This document shows positions 3,598 through 64,000 of a stretch of 64,000 nt of DNA, piece by piece. Position 1 is the stretch's first letter, and each line of letters begins with the position of its first letter. Both the position numbers and the translations under genes were made by a program. Source of the DNA: Hyphomicrobiales bacterium. GTDB taxonomy: Bacteria > Pseudomonadota > Alphaproteobacteria > Rhizobiales > Aestuariivirgaceae. The notes under the pieces were generated by a model, which saw nothing but the letters and a program-made list of their open reading frames with translations, was not told the DNA's origin and did no database searches. The stretch covers positions 1 to 64,000 of the forward strand of contig JANYLQ010000020.1 of the NCBI GenBank assembly GCA_025363755.1, given 5' to 3'.

Positions 3598-4845
3598 ATG
3601 CGTTTCGCGTCACTTGCAGTTTTATTGGCAGCCGGCACAGCCCTTTCGGGCTGCGATGGCAATCAACTCGATGCCGTCGCCAATCTCAGCAGGTCCTGCA
3701 CGAGTACTTCGCAAACATTGGATTGCAGCGGGCCGGAGAGTGCTGTTAGCGGCGGTGCAGTCAGCGGTGGTGGAGCAGTCAGCGGCGGCGGGGCAGTAAC
3801 GCCAACGACGAACACTGGAAACACGGCACAATTGGTAACCGGCGATACAACCATTATCCTCGAAGGCGGGAATTTGGTTTCAAGACCAACAAATATGGCG
3901 GTGTCAACGCTGACACAGACGCCGGGCCCAACCAATACAGCCAAAATTGTAATAACAACCAACACCAGTACAAATGCAAATTGGCCACAAGCCAAGACAA
4001 TGGAGGAATCGGTTTATGGGACATCGCTAGGTTCAGGTCTCGGCGGAACTTACATGGAATACGCCATGAGCAACAAAACACCGGGTGGTGTCACCGATGT
4101 CGACGAGGAACTGCAAGTATGGAAATGGAATGCAGGCACCGGAAAAAGCTATGCCACGCAATATCGTGACGTAACGGGCGGCGGTAACCCTGCCCGAAAC
4201 CAAGCCTGGTCATTCGGCGGAGACTATACAACTGCAGCCCAAATGCCAATTAACGGCAGCGCCACTTATTCAGGGAGGTTTACTGGTGAAGCAGTTACAG
4301 CAAATTTCGTGAACCCGACTAGTGGTACCCAGACTTTGGACCGGAACAACAGATGGTCCGTTACCGGCGACACAGCAATCACCGCGAATTACGGCGCGAA
4401 TGGCAACATAACCGGCACTCTGACGCCGACGGAATGGATGGCGTGGCAAACTCTTAACAGTACGACAGGTTTCTATACAACTTCTGCCGCCGATCCAATT
4501 GCTGATAACTGGTTTCCGGCAGCACAGGGGGGCTTTATGGATAAACCAATTCTCTTAAGTGGATCAATCAAAACCAACGCGACTGCGACGGGAAACACCA
4601 AGCCCAATACAATCACGGGTGTGGCACAATATGATCCCACCACAAACTGGGATAACACTGCTTCAAATAGTTTCTTCAGCGCCGGATTTTTTGGCAACAA
4701 CGCCGATAACATTACAGGTGTCTTCAGCATGGACGCTAGAACTCGGGCACCCGTGGGCGGCATCGGAGGCATTCATGATGATCGCCGCGCCTATGTTTCG
4801 ATGACAGGCATCTTCAATGCCTGCAAAACCGGGCCAGTTTGCTAA
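3598..4845 (+). CDS. Surface lipoprotein with TbpB-like beta-barrel domain (Slam-dependent lipoprotein candidate)
   Basis: 415-aa predicted lipoprotein. A signal peptide ends in the lipobox LSGC with lipidated Cys19. A low-complexity linker with three near copies of SGGGAV (nt 3745-3800) follows. The C-terminal part (about residues 200-410) is rich in short glycine-turn beta strands, such as GRFTGEAV and GNITGTLTP, and ends with a segment like FSMDARTRAPVGGIGG. These are typical of the eight-stranded barrel of TbpB/HpuA/fHbp-like surface lipoproteins. The last residue is Cys. Its stop codon overlaps the start of the Slam-like gene, which strongly suggests it is that protein's substrate. The ATG at 3598 gives a normal signal peptide; an in-frame ATG at 3568 would add ten residues. 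The ligand is unknown. Confidence 0.75.
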   Translation: MRFASLAVLLAAGTALSGCDGNQLDAVANLSRSCTSTSQTLDCSGPESAVSGGAVSGGGAVSGGGAVTPTTNTGNTAQLVTGDTTIILEGGNLVSRPTNMAVSTLTQTPGPTNTAKIVITTNTSTNANWPQAKTMEESVYGTSLGSGLGGTYMEYAMSNKTPGGVTDVDEELQVWKWNAGTGKSYATQYRDVTGGGNPARNQAWSFGGDYTTAAQMPINGSATYSGRFTGEAVTANFVNPTSGTQTLDRNNRWSVTGDTAITANYGANGNITGTLTPTEWMAWQTLNSTTGFYTTSAADPIADNWFPAAQGGFMDKPILLSGSIKTNATATGNTKPNTITGVAQYDPTTNWDNTASNSFFSAGFFGNNADNITGVFSMDARTRAPVGGIGGIHDDRRAYVSMTGIFNACKTGPVC

Positions 4846-6248
4846 AATCTAAAACACGAAAGAAATTAAGGCGCGTTTCAACACGCGCCTTGTTATGCTT
4901 GTTTGCACTGTTGATGGGGTGTGGATTGGCTAACGCTGAACCCTCCGGCCCCCCGCCATTAACCGCCAGCGATTTTGCGCTCTATGAATCCGGCTCTGAA
5001 GATATGCGCGTTCATGCTCTTATTGCCTTTGCACAAGCGGGCCAACAAGAACAAGCAGCACAGCTTTTGCATCGCTATCCATTACGCGGGTCCCATGCTG
5101 CAAACAGAACATTATTTATCGAGGGCCTCATTCTCGAACAACGTAAAGACTTGTTCGGCGCCGCTAGAAAATTCCGCGCCGCCCTCGCAGATGATCCCAA
5201 ACTCACCCTAGTGCGCTCAGAACTGGCAAAAGTTCTTTTAGGTCTTGACGAAACAGATAGCGCAGCACATCACCTGAAATTACTTGAAGCCGATGCACCT
5301 AATGCTGCAGATGCAGCTGGTATTCGGTCTTTTATCGACAGGATTGGTGACAAAAGGCCCTATTCATTCTCAGGTTTTGTTTCAGTTGCACCATCAACAA
5401 ATGTGAATAGTGGTTCGAACCATTCCATTCTTCGAAGCGATACGCTTGGTCCAAATTATGATCCCAATGGCACGATCAACAACCAAAAGCAGAGCGGGTT
5501 GGGTTTTTCCGGGGGCCTTAGTGCAGGCTTCAGCAAAAGGTTAAATGACCGCTTGCAACTGGTGCTTGGCGCTGGGATGAATGCCAACATCTATACCGAC
5601 CCTCAGTACAATGCGATCTCTACAAATGAATCGACCGAACTGCGCTACCTGTTCACGGACGGCTATCTCAGTTTCGGCGGAACAGCTACGCAGAATTTTG
5701 CTCAGCCAAGCTTAACCAGCTTCGAAATCAATAATCACACATTTGGACCCCGGCTTGCTACGAGCTATCAGATTTCCCAGCGCGACCTTATAAACAGCAG
5801 CATTTCGTACGAATGGCGCGACTTTCCTTATATCAACATCCTCAACGGCACAGCGCTCCACACAGATATTGCTGTAACTCACGCGATCGATTCAAGCACC
5901 AATTTCACTGTGTTTGGTGGATATGATAAAGTTACAAATCAAGATTTAGCCCAATCCTATTCCACTTATTTTGGCGGTTTGAATGTCTACAAAGAATTTC
6001 CGATGGGCTTAACAATTAATGCCAATGGGCAGGCCCGCTTTTCCCCCTTTAGTGGCCCTGATGGTTTTACGGGTGTGACACGGTTTGATAGCCGTTATGT
6101 GGGCAGTATCACACTTACCAAAAGAGATCTAAACTTTGTCGGCTTTGCGCCCTCGGTAAACTACACCTACGCGCTCAATAACAGTAATAATGCTCTCTTC
6201 GATTTTGACTCCCATTCTGTCAACTTCAACTTAACCAAAGAATTCTGA
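4839..6248 (+). CDS. Slam-type surface lipoprotein assembly modifier (DUF560)
   Basis: 469-aa outer-membrane protein. It has a signal peptide cut at ANA-EP, then an alpha-helical TPR-like region (about residues 45-170, including LRSELAKVLLG-type helices). From about residue 175 alternating amphipathic strands suggest a C-terminal beta-barrel, ending in a terminal Phe as expected for an outer-membrane barrel. TPR plus DUF560 barrel is the architecture of Slam, which delivers lipoproteins to the cell surface in Neisseria and relatives. The TTG start lies inside the stop region of the lipoprotein gene (7-base overlap), so translation is probably coupled. A GC-rich hairpin sits over the first codons (4868-4891). 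Confidence 0.8.
   Translation: MLKSKTRKKLRRVSTRALLCLFALLMGCGLANAEPSGPPPLTASDFALYESGSEDMRVHALIAFAQAGQQEQAAQLLHRYPLRGSHAANRTLFIEGLILEQRKDLFGAARKFRAALADDPKLTLVRSELAKVLLGLDETDSAAHHLKLLEADAPNAADAAGIRSFIDRIGDKRPYSFSGFVSVAPSTNVNSGSNHSILRSDTLGPNYDPNGTINNQKQSGLGFSGGLSAGFSKRLNDRLQLVLGAGMNANIYTDPQYNAISTNESTELRYLFTDGYLSFGGTATQNFAQPSLTSFEINNHTFGPRLATSYQISQRDLINSSISYEWRDFPYINILNGTALHTDIAVTHAIDSSTNFTVFGGYDKVTNQDLAQSYSTYFGGLNVYKEFPMGLTINANGQARFSPFSGPDGFTGVTRFDSRYVGSITLTKRDLNFVGFAPSVNYTYALNNSNNALFDFDSHSVNFNLTKEF
4868..4891 (+). other. Hairpin across the early codons of the Slam-like gene
   Basis: An 8-bp perfect stem (AAGGCGCG with CGCGCCTT) closes an 8-base loop, about 30 bases into the Slam-like coding sequence. 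There is no uninterrupted T tract after it, so it is not a standard terminator. It could reduce expression of the second gene relative to the lipoprotein, or be incidental to basic codons. Confidence 0.35.
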
Positions 6249-9578: not shown

Positions 9579-10594
9579 CCACCAAAACCGATCACCGCGC
9601 GCCACAAGCGTTCAAGCTTGATCCAGAGCTAACAAAGTCCAAGGCGAAGCCCACCAAGATTGAGTTTACAGCGCAAGAACCTGAACAGGAATTGGCCACC
9701 ATTCCAGTTCCGCCAGAGCAGCGCGTCTCCAGACGCCCGCGCTGGGGGTTTATCTTGATTTCTGCTCTGGCAACTTTGTTTGCACTGTGGCTTGGCCTTT
9801 CGGTTGAACAAATCGTTGAAAGCTTTTTTCTAAAGTCGGCATTCATGGGTTATGTGGCACTGACAGTCGCAAGCGTCGCTGGCTTTTCAGCACTTGCCAT
9901 TATTTTCCGCGAAATTTTAGGTTTGGTTCGCTTGCGTCGCCTCGAGCACCTTCAACTCAACGCCAGCCACGCTATCAATCAAGACGATACAGCATCAGCC
10001 GACGCTGCCATTTCGGGCCTCAAAAACCTCTATGCCAATCGCCCTGACGCAGCATGGAATTTAAAAAATTTAGATCTCCACACTCACGATATTATGGACC
10101 CGCGTGACCGGGTGCGCCTTGCTGAACGCTATTTGGTTGATCCGCTCGATGAAGTCGCCCACCGCATCATCGCCAAGCGTGCGCGCCGTGTGACACTTTT
10201 AACCACTGTGACACCCGCTGCGGCCCTCGATATGCTTTTTGTGGGCGCGCAGAATTTAAGCATGCTGCGTGAAATCGCCAGCCTCTATGGCGGCAGACCC
10301 TCAACCCTTGCCACATTCAGATTGGCGCGCATGGTTGTCACCCATCTTGCCGTAGCTGGTGGGCTGGCGTTATCAGACAACTTTATTCATCTCTTTGTCG
10401 GCAAAGGAATTCTGGGTCGCCTCTCCGCGCGTTTTGGCGAAGGAGCAGTCAATGGCATTCTCACCGCCCGCATCGGTTTGGCCGCGCGCGAAGTCTGCAG
10501 GCCCATCCCTCAGGAACAGTCAAAGCGTGAAAAGCTTTCAAGCTTGGTTAAAGAACTGGCAAATTTCAATAATCAGACCAAGTCAGAAAATTAA
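9575..10594 (+). CDS. ycjF: YcjF family inner-membrane protein (DUF697, TIGR01620-like)
   Basis: 339-aa membrane protein coupled to ycjX by a 4-base overlap. The first 50 residues are polar and Pro/Lys rich. Two hydrophobic segments at about 52-72 and 85-108 form a membrane anchor. A C-terminal region with further hydrophobic helices (about residues 205-270, containing TPAAALDMLFVG) matches DUF697. The family is thought to act with YcjX in envelope stress; no enzymatic motif is visible. The start codon is GTG. Confidence 0.8.
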   Translation: MTTKTDHRAPQAFKLDPELTKSKAKPTKIEFTAQEPEQELATIPVPPEQRVSRRPRWGFILISALATLFALWLGLSVEQIVESFFLKSAFMGYVALTVASVAGFSALAIIFREILGLVRLRRLEHLQLNASHAINQDDTASADAAISGLKNLYANRPDAAWNLKNLDLHTHDIMDPRDRVRLAERYLVDPLDEVAHRIIAKRARRVTLLTTVTPAAALDMLFVGAQNLSMLREIASLYGGRPSTLATFRLARMVVTHLAVAGGLALSDNFIHLFVGKGILGRLSARFGEGAVNGILTARIGLAAREVCRPIPQEQSKREKLSSLVKELANFNNQTKSEN

Positions 10595-62096: not shown

Positions 62097-62438
62097 ATGA
62101 AACTGAAGCATGAACAAATCCAATATATCGAATTTCTTTCAATCAATCTTGAAAGAGCCGAAAAATTTTACAACGCGTCCTTCGGCTGGACCTTCCAAGA
62201 TTACGGCCCAGACTACACCGCCTTCGAAGGCGACCACATCGACGGCGGCTTCATGCTGGGCAAACCCAGAAAAGGCAGCACGCTGGTGATCCTCTATTCG
62301 GAGAAACTAGAGGAAACAAAAATGAAAATCGAAAAAGCCGGCGGCAAAATTGTGAAAGATATTTTCAGCTTTCCGGGTGGGAGACGGTTTCATTTTGCTG
62401 ATCCTGATGGGAATGAGTTGGCGGTTTGGGGGAAGTGA
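62097..62438 (+). CDS. VOC family (glyoxalase-like) protein
   Basis: 113-aa single-module vicinal-oxygen-chelate protein. IEFLSINLERAEKFYNASFGWTF at the N-terminus and FHFADPDGNELAVWG at the C-terminus are standard family blocks; the latter contains the metal Glu. Such small proteins are often glyoxalase- or antibiotic-resistance-like; the function cannot be told here. Confidence 0.85.
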   Translation: MKLKHEQIQYIEFLSINLERAEKFYNASFGWTFQDYGPDYTAFEGDHIDGGFMLGKPRKGSTLVILYSEKLEETKMKIEKAGGKIVKDIFSFPGGRRFHFADPDGNELAVWGK

Positions 62439-62482: not shown

Positions 62483-62733
62483 CGTCACTCCTGCGAAGGC
62501 AGGGGTCCAGCTTAGAGCAAGGCGGCCCCCCTCAGTCCTTCGGACAGCTCCCCAGCAAGCTGGGCGGAGCGCGATCTATAATCTAGCTCAGAATGTAGTC
62601 TATTTCGCCCTCCTCCCAGCTTGCTGGCGGGCGGAGCACTTGCGACACCCGAAGGGCGGAGGGGGCAACACGGCATATGCGATAACCCTGCCTTCGCAGG
62701 GAAGACGGTCTATGGTATGAATTCGGAATGACG
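62483..62733. repeat. Composite palindromic repeat element with short terminal inverted repeats
   Basis: The ends CGTCACTCC (62483-62491) and GGAATGACG (62725-62733) are inverted with one mismatch. Inside, left and right arms mirror each other: CTGCGAAGGCAGG with CCTGCCTTCGCAG, a block with CCTTCGG, and CCCAGCAAGCTGGG with CCCAGCTTGCTGGCGGG. The element is about 250 bases, GC rich, and encodes nothing. Its right end supplies the ATG of the broken hicB. Confidence 0.6.
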
Positions 62734-62940
62734 ACTCGTTACGCAATAATGATCTAAAAGACCAGAACAGGGTATTCAGCCTTCGTCCCAGACTTACCCG
62801 GCTGCATCGCCACCAGAGACAGCCAAACTGAAGTTGAACACGAAATGAAAAACGCAATCCGGTTTCATATTGACGGACTAATGGAAGACTGCTTGCCAGT
62901 GCCTAAAGCAACGAGCATCGCAGAGGGTGTGGTGGCCTAA
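62728..62940 (+). pseudogene. hicB-type antitoxin with a nonsense codon
   Basis: Reading from the ATG at 62728 gives TRYAIMI, then TAA (62755-62757), then KTRTGYSAFVPDLPGCIAT and a full HicB body ending EGVVA at the TAA of 62938-62940. FVPDLPGCIAT is the core HicB motif. One base would restore a 70-residue protein (Glu is usual at this codon). No hicA is visible on either side. The start codon lies within a repeat, so the native 5' end may be altered. Confidence 0.75.
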
Positions 62941-62991
62941 GGGCGTTATTCGCGGCAAAAAGGTAAATTCCACTCTTTTTTCGTTATGGGG

Positions 62992-64000
62992 CTAGGGGTA
63001 GAGTTCCTCTTCAGCGCCTAGTTCCCAATCATAAACATTGTCGTCAGCATAGATTTGGTTCTGCATGTCACTATTGAACGATAATTTTGTCAAACTCCAA
63101 GTATCAAAAGCTTTGGGCTCATAAGTGGAAAGTTCGGTATCATAAAATGATACACCAGCATCGCACAAACTTTTGTAGAAATTACCAACGTCTGAAGCTG
63201 TTCCAAGTTTTTTAAACGTAATCATCGAATCCCAGCCGCGTCTTTCGACCTCATACAGAACCATCCAACCGTCCGTTCCGAAATCATCAGTATCATAACG
63301 TGTCCTTAATTCCAGAAGCGAAAAATTTCCGAGCGAATTTGCCCTAATATGGAATAGCTAAAGGTCAATCAGTGGACACGACAAAGCGAAACAACCGTCA
63401 TAGAGAAGCTTAGGGATAGATATGTTGAGGTACAAGAAACTGTATAAATACCAACTCGTACTGCCGACATCATTCCTCCTCGTGCAAGCTTCAGCAGACG
63501 AAATTAGGACTCGCTTGTTGTCACTCGAAACACCAATGGACTTCAATAATCCAAGATACAAAGGGGCAATCCAGCGGATCAGATGGGGAGCGGCTAGCAA
63601 CAATCTTTGCAAGTAATCCGCCAGCAGCGCGAATTCCTTCGTTCCTAAAAGCTTTTTTGCGAACCTTTTGTTCGCGTAACCAACAATGTTAGAATCCGGA
63701 AATTCTAACATTAATTTGTAAACCAGATCGAAGTAACGCTCTATCAATGCACTACCTACAAAGTTTGCCAATTGATCAAATTCGCGCTGCCAATTACCCG
63801 GAGAATGACTCAACCCTCCATTTATTTTGGTTTTAAAATCATTCAGTCTTAGTTCATACTGCCTAATCAATTTTACGAAAAGACTTTGGACTTTGTCCGC
63901 TTCGCTTGTGTCGGAAACACCAAATTGGTAATCATCTATTGCATGATAAACTTGTTTGCTTTTAATGCCTGAGCTCTTTCCACAGAGACTTGCGTCAATG
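62992..64000 (-). pseudogene. Reverse transcriptase C-terminal part (UG/DRT/Abi-like), partial, with in-frame TAG
   Basis: The frame is open from the right edge (64000) to 63361 and again from 63357 to 62992, broken only by TAG at 63358-63360. The part at the edge reads VYHAIDDYQFG (RT motif C with catalytic Asp-Asp), then about 30 residues later YELRLNDFKTKI (motif D Lys). So it is an RNA-directed DNA polymerase whose fingers and motifs A-B lie beyond the window. A long helical C-terminal region follows, as in defence-associated UG/Abi enzymes. After the TAG, sequence with WMVLYEVERRGWDS continues in frame, so TAG probably replaces CAG. An ATG at 63264 is the only later start. The region is AT richer than its neighbours. 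Confidence 0.7.

Follow-up and report, generated by a model that had tools for sequence, protein, structure and literature searches.

A broken, predicted DRT6-type reverse transcriptase gene between a VOC-family gene and folD, and the conserved terminal tyrosine of its intact relatives

The window analysed here (the whole stretch of 64,000 nucleotides, corresponding to C4:1-64000 of a Hyphomicrobiales genome) ends within a minus-strand reading frame that carries two motifs of a reverse transcriptase (RT), raising the question of what this gene encodes and whether it can still act in defence. Since the contig extends to 69,825 bases, the gene could be read past the window edge, and the surrounding locus (L003, C4:60001-69825) was analysed as a whole. 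Contig reading frames and the PADLOC Drt6 profile showed that the RT is spread over three minus-strand stretches, an N-terminal piece, a middle piece of 374 amino acids and a C-terminal stretch (Table 1). The frame which the earlier note had described as open to the window end was confirmed (63358-63999), together with its AIDDYQFG and its LNxxKT-type motif D, here LNDFKT. Motifs A and B, which the same note had proposed to look for directly upstream, were found once the contig was read past 64000: 482 extra bases carry the middle piece to contig position 64482 (63358-64482), and both motif A (LDISRFYDSVYTHS, with D89) and motif B (GLPIGPDTSRILSE) lie beyond the window end. D89, G147 of motif B and D183/D184 of motif C are invariant among 10 and among 34 aligned RTs; motifs A to D and the catalytic aspartates are thus all present in the RT core of the window gene. 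The end of the gene, placed at 63361 in the note, had to be revised, because 63358-63360 is an in-frame TAG and the frame runs 121 codons further. This last stretch is readable to 62995 and ends ...EEELYP, followed by a TAG stop at 62992-62994.

Table 1. Coordinates of the RT gene pieces, their lesions and the bordering genes (window positions unless the contig is named).
Feature	Position	Strand	Evidence or context
VOC/glyoxalase-family gene, left border of accessory stretch	62097-62438	+	PF00903, 3.1e-8
hicB-like antitoxin remnant, neighbour of the RT	62758-62940	+	PF15919, 3e-10, profile 10-63 of 123
RT C-terminal stretch past the TAG, severed	62992-63357	-	Drt6 427-506, 3.6e-7
Codon of penultimate Tyr, candidate (predicted) priming residue	62998-63000	-	codon read; Tyr in last two residues in 8/8 relatives
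In-frame TAG	63358-63360	-	between RT middle piece and 121-codon tail stretch
RT middle piece, motifs C and D, start of C-terminal domain	63358-64000 in window	-	Drt6, 4.6e-31
Motif D, LNDFKT	63829-63846	-	sequence and RT alignments
Motif C, AIDDYQFG	63919-63942	-	sequence and RT alignments
Interrupting element, 3,388 bp	contig 64458-67845, just outside window		between RT N-terminal and middle pieces
RT N-terminal piece (ORF)	contig 67708-68064, outside window	-	Drt6 profile 3-88, 1.6e-8
folD, right border of accessory stretch	contig 68643-69521, outside window		beside VOC-family gene in G408

The RT gene is broken twice, by the insertion of an IS1595-family element and by the in-frame TAG. 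The element ends in 30-nt inverted repeats that are 93% complementary, is flanked on both sides by the 8-bp direct repeat CAGTTTTC, a target duplication, and encodes a transposase assigned to the IS1595 family (PF12762, 3.3e-36; NF033547 above cut-off). A family transposase, terminal inverted repeats and a short target duplication are therefore all found, and a duplication of 8 bp is usual for this family. The insertion splits the RT after at most about 70 codons; the RT pieces on both sides share the frame phase at the 8-bp repeat, and the relatives of the gene are continuous across that place.

Profile comparisons indicate that the frame at the window end belongs to a reverse transcriptase of the DRT6 type (UG/Abi). 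Drt6 was the top PADLOC model for all three stretches. The 213 residues encoded inside the window matched it far beyond chance (profile 198-407, 4.6e-31) while giving no Pfam match at an E value of 0.01, and the 374-residue piece matched it at 6e-94 (53-407), with 313.7 bits versus 225.7 for the next model, a Drt4; this longer piece also matched PF00078 RVT_1 (1.6e-7, 31.7 bits; cut-off 29.6). The best solved structure was 9wy8 (2e-32 for the 374-residue piece and 1.1e-116 for a profile of the relatives, over profile positions 15-506 of 513). Its title names an MBP-fused RT-domain protein without mention of DRT6, and we take it to be the DRT6 cryo-EM entry; we also equate DRT6 (PADLOC PDLC03748) with UG12. 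The UG-class hit put forward as a check in the earlier note was thus obtained, with both profiles and structures. UG15-type chains came second to 9wy8 (6.2e-22 for the piece, about 9e-87 for the profile of relatives), and 7r08, AbiK and Drt3b were matched behind it. DRT4 (UG15) gave the second-best profiles and structures for the window RT, but Drt6 outscored it for the window piece and for the scanned members of the window RT's subclade, and DRT4 proper was rejected, as the 374-residue piece reached 159.3 bits with NCBIfam NF041749, whose cut-off is 450. The RT core is also related to those of AbiK and Abi-P2 (profile matches of the 374-residue piece at 4.7e-33 and 1.8e-25), and DRT3b was matched in the RT core only (Drt3b profile, 3.7e-34). 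The window gene resembles DRT6 in its best model score, in being a lone RT gene and in having 9wy8 as best solved relative; it differs from DRT6 in belonging to a long-stemmed, alphaproteobacterial subclade with Tyr at the tail end, where Phe is commoner, and in being broken.

When 84,980 named species genomes were scanned with a pattern, 46 related loci were obtained, of which seven are close (45-53%), in an uncultured Rhodobacteraceae, Labrys, Hoeflea, a Hyphomicrobiales MAG, Alteriqipengyuania, Eilatimonas and Amylibacter. An eighth relative, L012, was added by a set of 397 genomes from the order, 17 of which match the Drt6 profile at 1e-20. These eight distinct intact relatives (45-52% identical) form an alphaproteobacterial subclade. 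Among 385 genomes of the class, ten match the alignment of the relatives at 1e-20, two of which belong to the subclade by score, the window's genome and the genome encoding the L071 protein. In the tree, the eight relatives group with the window piece in a long-stemmed clade supported at 100/100; the join of this subclade to other Drt6/Drt4-like rows is weak (42/94), with a program warning of long branches and in a tree without a characterised DRT6 protein. A viral home for the RT was rejected: the pattern scan of viral contigs returned 53 stretches and no relative, and the matches in phages (9 records) and plasmids (208 records) were distant, none having one place that covers 80% of the query.

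Flanks were listed for seven relatives, and chosen neighbour ORFs were scanned for L072, L073, L074 and L076; L072 is the gene of Labrys sp. KNU-23, and L074 that of the Hyphomicrobiales MAG. In all four, a defence-type gene lies at most 3 kb from the RT: a type ISP restriction enzyme 0.4 kb downstream in L073 (PADLOC, 2283 bits), AbiH just upstream in L074 (PF14253, 5.5e-65), an ApeA-like protein just downstream in L076 (PF18862, 3.8e-17) and, about 2.9 kb upstream in L072, a helicase resembling the BrxHI and DISARM helicases. Because these four were chosen for their defence-looking neighbours, 4/7 is a lower bound and 4/4 is not a rate; the flanks of L071, L075 and L077, inspected by eye, have housekeeping genes among the neighbours.

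The DRT6 kind of enzyme is already known, and the fresh lead offered by this locus is the intact subclade and its conserved tail. All eight distinct relatives have a Tyr within the last two residues, penultimate in seven, where a largely acidic tail ends, and the severed tail of the window gene likewise has a penultimate Tyr. Outside the subclade, where only some rows were classed by PADLOC, a penultimate Tyr was found in 1/14 Drt6/Drt4-like rows, an aromatic residue within the last two positions in 10/14 and a terminal Phe in 9/14; more distant rows gave 0/25 for a penultimate Tyr and 1/25 for an aromatic, and none of the AbiK/UG30-like rows counted had a terminal Tyr. These counts omit short, incomplete or duplicate ORFs (L081, L083, L085, L088, L094, L099, L112, L113, L114, L116) and loci with core matches only (L015-L021, L126-L129), and the identical proteins of L009 and L072, L013 and L074, and L120 and L071 were each counted once. 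In L006, L007, L008, L122, L123 and L125, which are Drt6-like and lie outside the subclade, the tail is acidic and its last residue is Phe (DDEF, EEPF, FPDF and similar endings). Such tails recall the tips of SSB proteins.

Priming from a C-terminal Tyr is reported for DRT3b, at Y666 of 667 residues, within a tail spanning 622-667 (PMC13174585, a preprint, in excerpt), and for DRT9, at Y496/Y498 in a peptide ending NYDYE (PMC12483538, in excerpt), so the subclade is predicted to prime in the same way. In AbiK and Abi-P2 the primers are Y44 and Y61, close to the N-terminus and not at the tail end (PMC9508834, in excerpt), and a terminal primer is thus not general. Excerpts of two reviews (PMC13213688; PMC13314766) name no priming residue for DRT6. 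By analogy with DRT3b and DRT9, the subclade could, with chances a little below even, represent a distinct DRT6-type branch which starts untemplated DNA synthesis at an invariant Tyr at the C-terminal tip. This priming Tyr is a reasoned guess rather than a finding, and its main rival is a binding role for the tail, which we hold to be nearly an even bet: the terminal Tyr would not be the primer, and the acidic tail with its terminal aromatic residue would bind a partner, for instance as a mimic of the acidic SSB tip. The frequent terminal Phe of the Drt6/Drt4-like rows outside the subclade, in several cases after an acidic run, speaks for binding, as Phe has no hydroxyl for priming, and so does the different location of the primers of AbiK and Abi-P2. 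Against it, the residue of the subclade is specifically Tyr in all eight relatives and in the window's tail, and in seven of the eight it is penultimate, which is the place of the DRT3b primer. If the priming role were true, terminal-Tyr priming would be common to single-gene DRTs and to those bearing a non-coding RNA, since DRT3b works with Drt3a and an ncRNA and DRT9 with an ncRNA, unlike the lone RT considered here; the TAG in the window's genome would then remove exactly that primer. The strikingly conserved terminal Tyr of the intact relatives makes the DRT6-type priming residue testable by one mutation.

DRT4 is reported to be a single-gene, template-independent, Tyr-primed maker of single-stranded DNA (ssDNA) whose product is protected by the phage protein ORF55, and DRT6, its relative, to be a single-gene antiphage system likewise activated by ORF55 (PMC13213688; PMC13314766, both in excerpt); the first three of these features are those proposed here for the intact relatives of the window gene. 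We consider it quite probable that the locus holds a dead single-gene DRT6-type antiphage RT between a VOC-family gene and folD, and that its intact relatives defend through untemplated, Tyr-primed ssDNA. A DRT6-type RT gene would have been acquired between the two genes. In the intact relatives, the RT would make ssDNA without a nucleic-acid template, with one of its own tyrosines as the starting point; in the subclade, this would most likely be the conserved Tyr at the C-terminal tip. Once the cell is infected, a phage protein would let the ssDNA accumulate, and cell growth would stop before phage is made. In the window's genome, the RT should not defend, because neither RT piece unites start, catalytic core and tail.

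How far the window copy has decayed was judged from the frame around the TAG. A single TAG interrupts a frame of 497 residues (middle piece and tail), which matches the Drt6 profile at 1.8e-106 and the alignment of the relatives at 5.8e-220, although this alignment includes the window piece itself. Of the columns without variation among the eight relatives, the stretch past the TAG keeps 16/16, while 14/100 are altered in the middle piece. In the same test applied to the relatives, seven differ at 1-6 of 87-92 columns and the deepest one, L077, at 23/109. Either the decay of the RT has barely begun, or the excess substitutions only reflect the deeper place of the window row in the tree; the little sign of decay in the middle piece and in the post-TAG stretch speaks against the best explanation given above. 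The TAG could be a sequencing error. That the TAG, or both lesions, come from an assembly error or a minority allele, most cells having a working gene, is nevertheless rather unlikely: the draft assembly comprises 64 contigs, and apart from the TAG the frame stays open, with conservation continuing beyond it, but the clean 8-bp duplication, the matching inverted repeats and the element's own transposase are what a real insertion would show. Still less probable is a living gene in which the middle piece, starting near contig 64482 in or beside the transposon end, serves as a truncated RT that retains some activity or has acquired another function. Such an RT would retain motifs A to D, and the stretch past the TAG its conserved columns; it would, against this, lack the N-terminal part (LLDRGFYPVELPP with the residues that follow) present in all eight relatives, as well as the tail with the conserved Tyr, and its altered invariant columns exceed those of every relative but L077. 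A complete open gene is found in the eight relatives and not in the window's genome, where transposon and TAG interrupt it, and the window gene is the remnant of a DRT6 member, an ordinary pseudogene, and not a working member. With the Drt6 profile and the alignment of the relatives, no second copy of this RT was found in the genome; the matches were confined to the two pieces already described.

A group II intron or retron RT can practically be dismissed, since the weak matches that would suggest one (TIGR04416, 2e-8; retron St85 RT model, 2.5e-5) reach 33.7 bits for a cut-off of 300 and 23.7 bits for a cut-off of 235, versus 313.7 for Drt6, Pfam gives RVT_1 alone with no maturase or HNH part, and a tRNA is the sole Rfam match across the 9.8 kb of L003. 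Group II intron and retron RTs were therefore rejected on profile scores, and the earlier note's preference for a defence-type RT of the UG class stood. The same Rfam scan of the window's locus, considered for an ncRNA partner, matched the tRNA alone.

The surroundings of the gene look like an accessory stretch rather than the defence locus in which the earlier note had seen the window end: a single RT gene, broken twice, stands alone between the VOC-family gene and folD, accompanied only by toxin-antitoxin pieces. One of these is the decayed hicB already noticed next to the RT, which is real; the other is an addiction-module antidote gene between the RT and folD (L003:8154-8603, contig 68154-68603, minus strand; PF21716, 6.7e-25), a homolog of which adjoins folD in genome G264. 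The DNA is AT-richer here, as had also been remarked (GC 0.43 for 62701-64000 versus 0.50 for the window), with 0.41-0.45 across the RT stretches and 0.50-0.56 for flanking DNA; the RT gene was likewise AT-richer than its own locus in the six relatives checked, by 0.01 to 0.18. Among 37 genomes of the genus, a DRT6-type RT gene was found in the window's genome alone. By folD, the nearest genome is G408 (97% identity, with a second folD at 92%). It has no such RT, and a 4.7-kb contig carries its VOC and folD with about 170 bp between them, whereas 6.2 kb separate them in the window's genome; with the restriction of the gene to one genome in 37, this gives the RT and the DNA around it the look of an accessory stretch. 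A defence-family gene would thus have been gained by one genome of the genus and later lost to a transposon and a stop codon. A literature search on defence RTs, insertion sequences and pseudogenes found no relevant report, as judged by titles and abstracts. The accessory stretch is flanked on both sides by a 42-bp repeat (81% identity) in opposite orientation. Another UG-type RT, similar in its core only and with a further ORF just downstream, occurs in a genome of the same genus (L020, G335:C87:26434-26871 and around).

The interrupting element resembles IS1595-family elements with passenger genes in its transposase, inverted repeats, 8-bp duplication and extra genes. It contains a tRNA-like gene (L003:4559-4635, contig 64559-64635, minus strand; Rfam tRNA, 45.7 bits), which ARAGORN reads as tRNA-Thr(cgt) with an atypical anticodon position (36) and whose nearest match in the genome is tRNA-Arg(tct), at 74%; it may be a degenerate or unusual tRNA that travels as cargo. 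The idea that this tRNA suppresses the TAG was considered and dropped, the anticodon given by ARAGORN being cgt and not cta. The proteins of 141 and 231 residues also encoded by the element (L003:7353-7778 and 4676-5371, minus strand) received no Pfam, PADLOC or curated NCBIfam assignment. In another genome of the genus, a contig of 3,850 bp (L054, G186:C4:1-3850) consists of a single related element from end to end. It shares the inverted-repeat ends and has a transposase stretch 71% identical and a different cargo, which unlike the interrupting element includes no tRNA-like gene; this element may be multi-copy or circular. More ends of the element family were seen in the window's genome, in L055 (G000:C50, about 9947-10428) and L056 (G000:C57, about 69542). 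The end in L055 is accompanied by a homolog of the 141-residue protein, which recurs at the same element end in L054 and L055.
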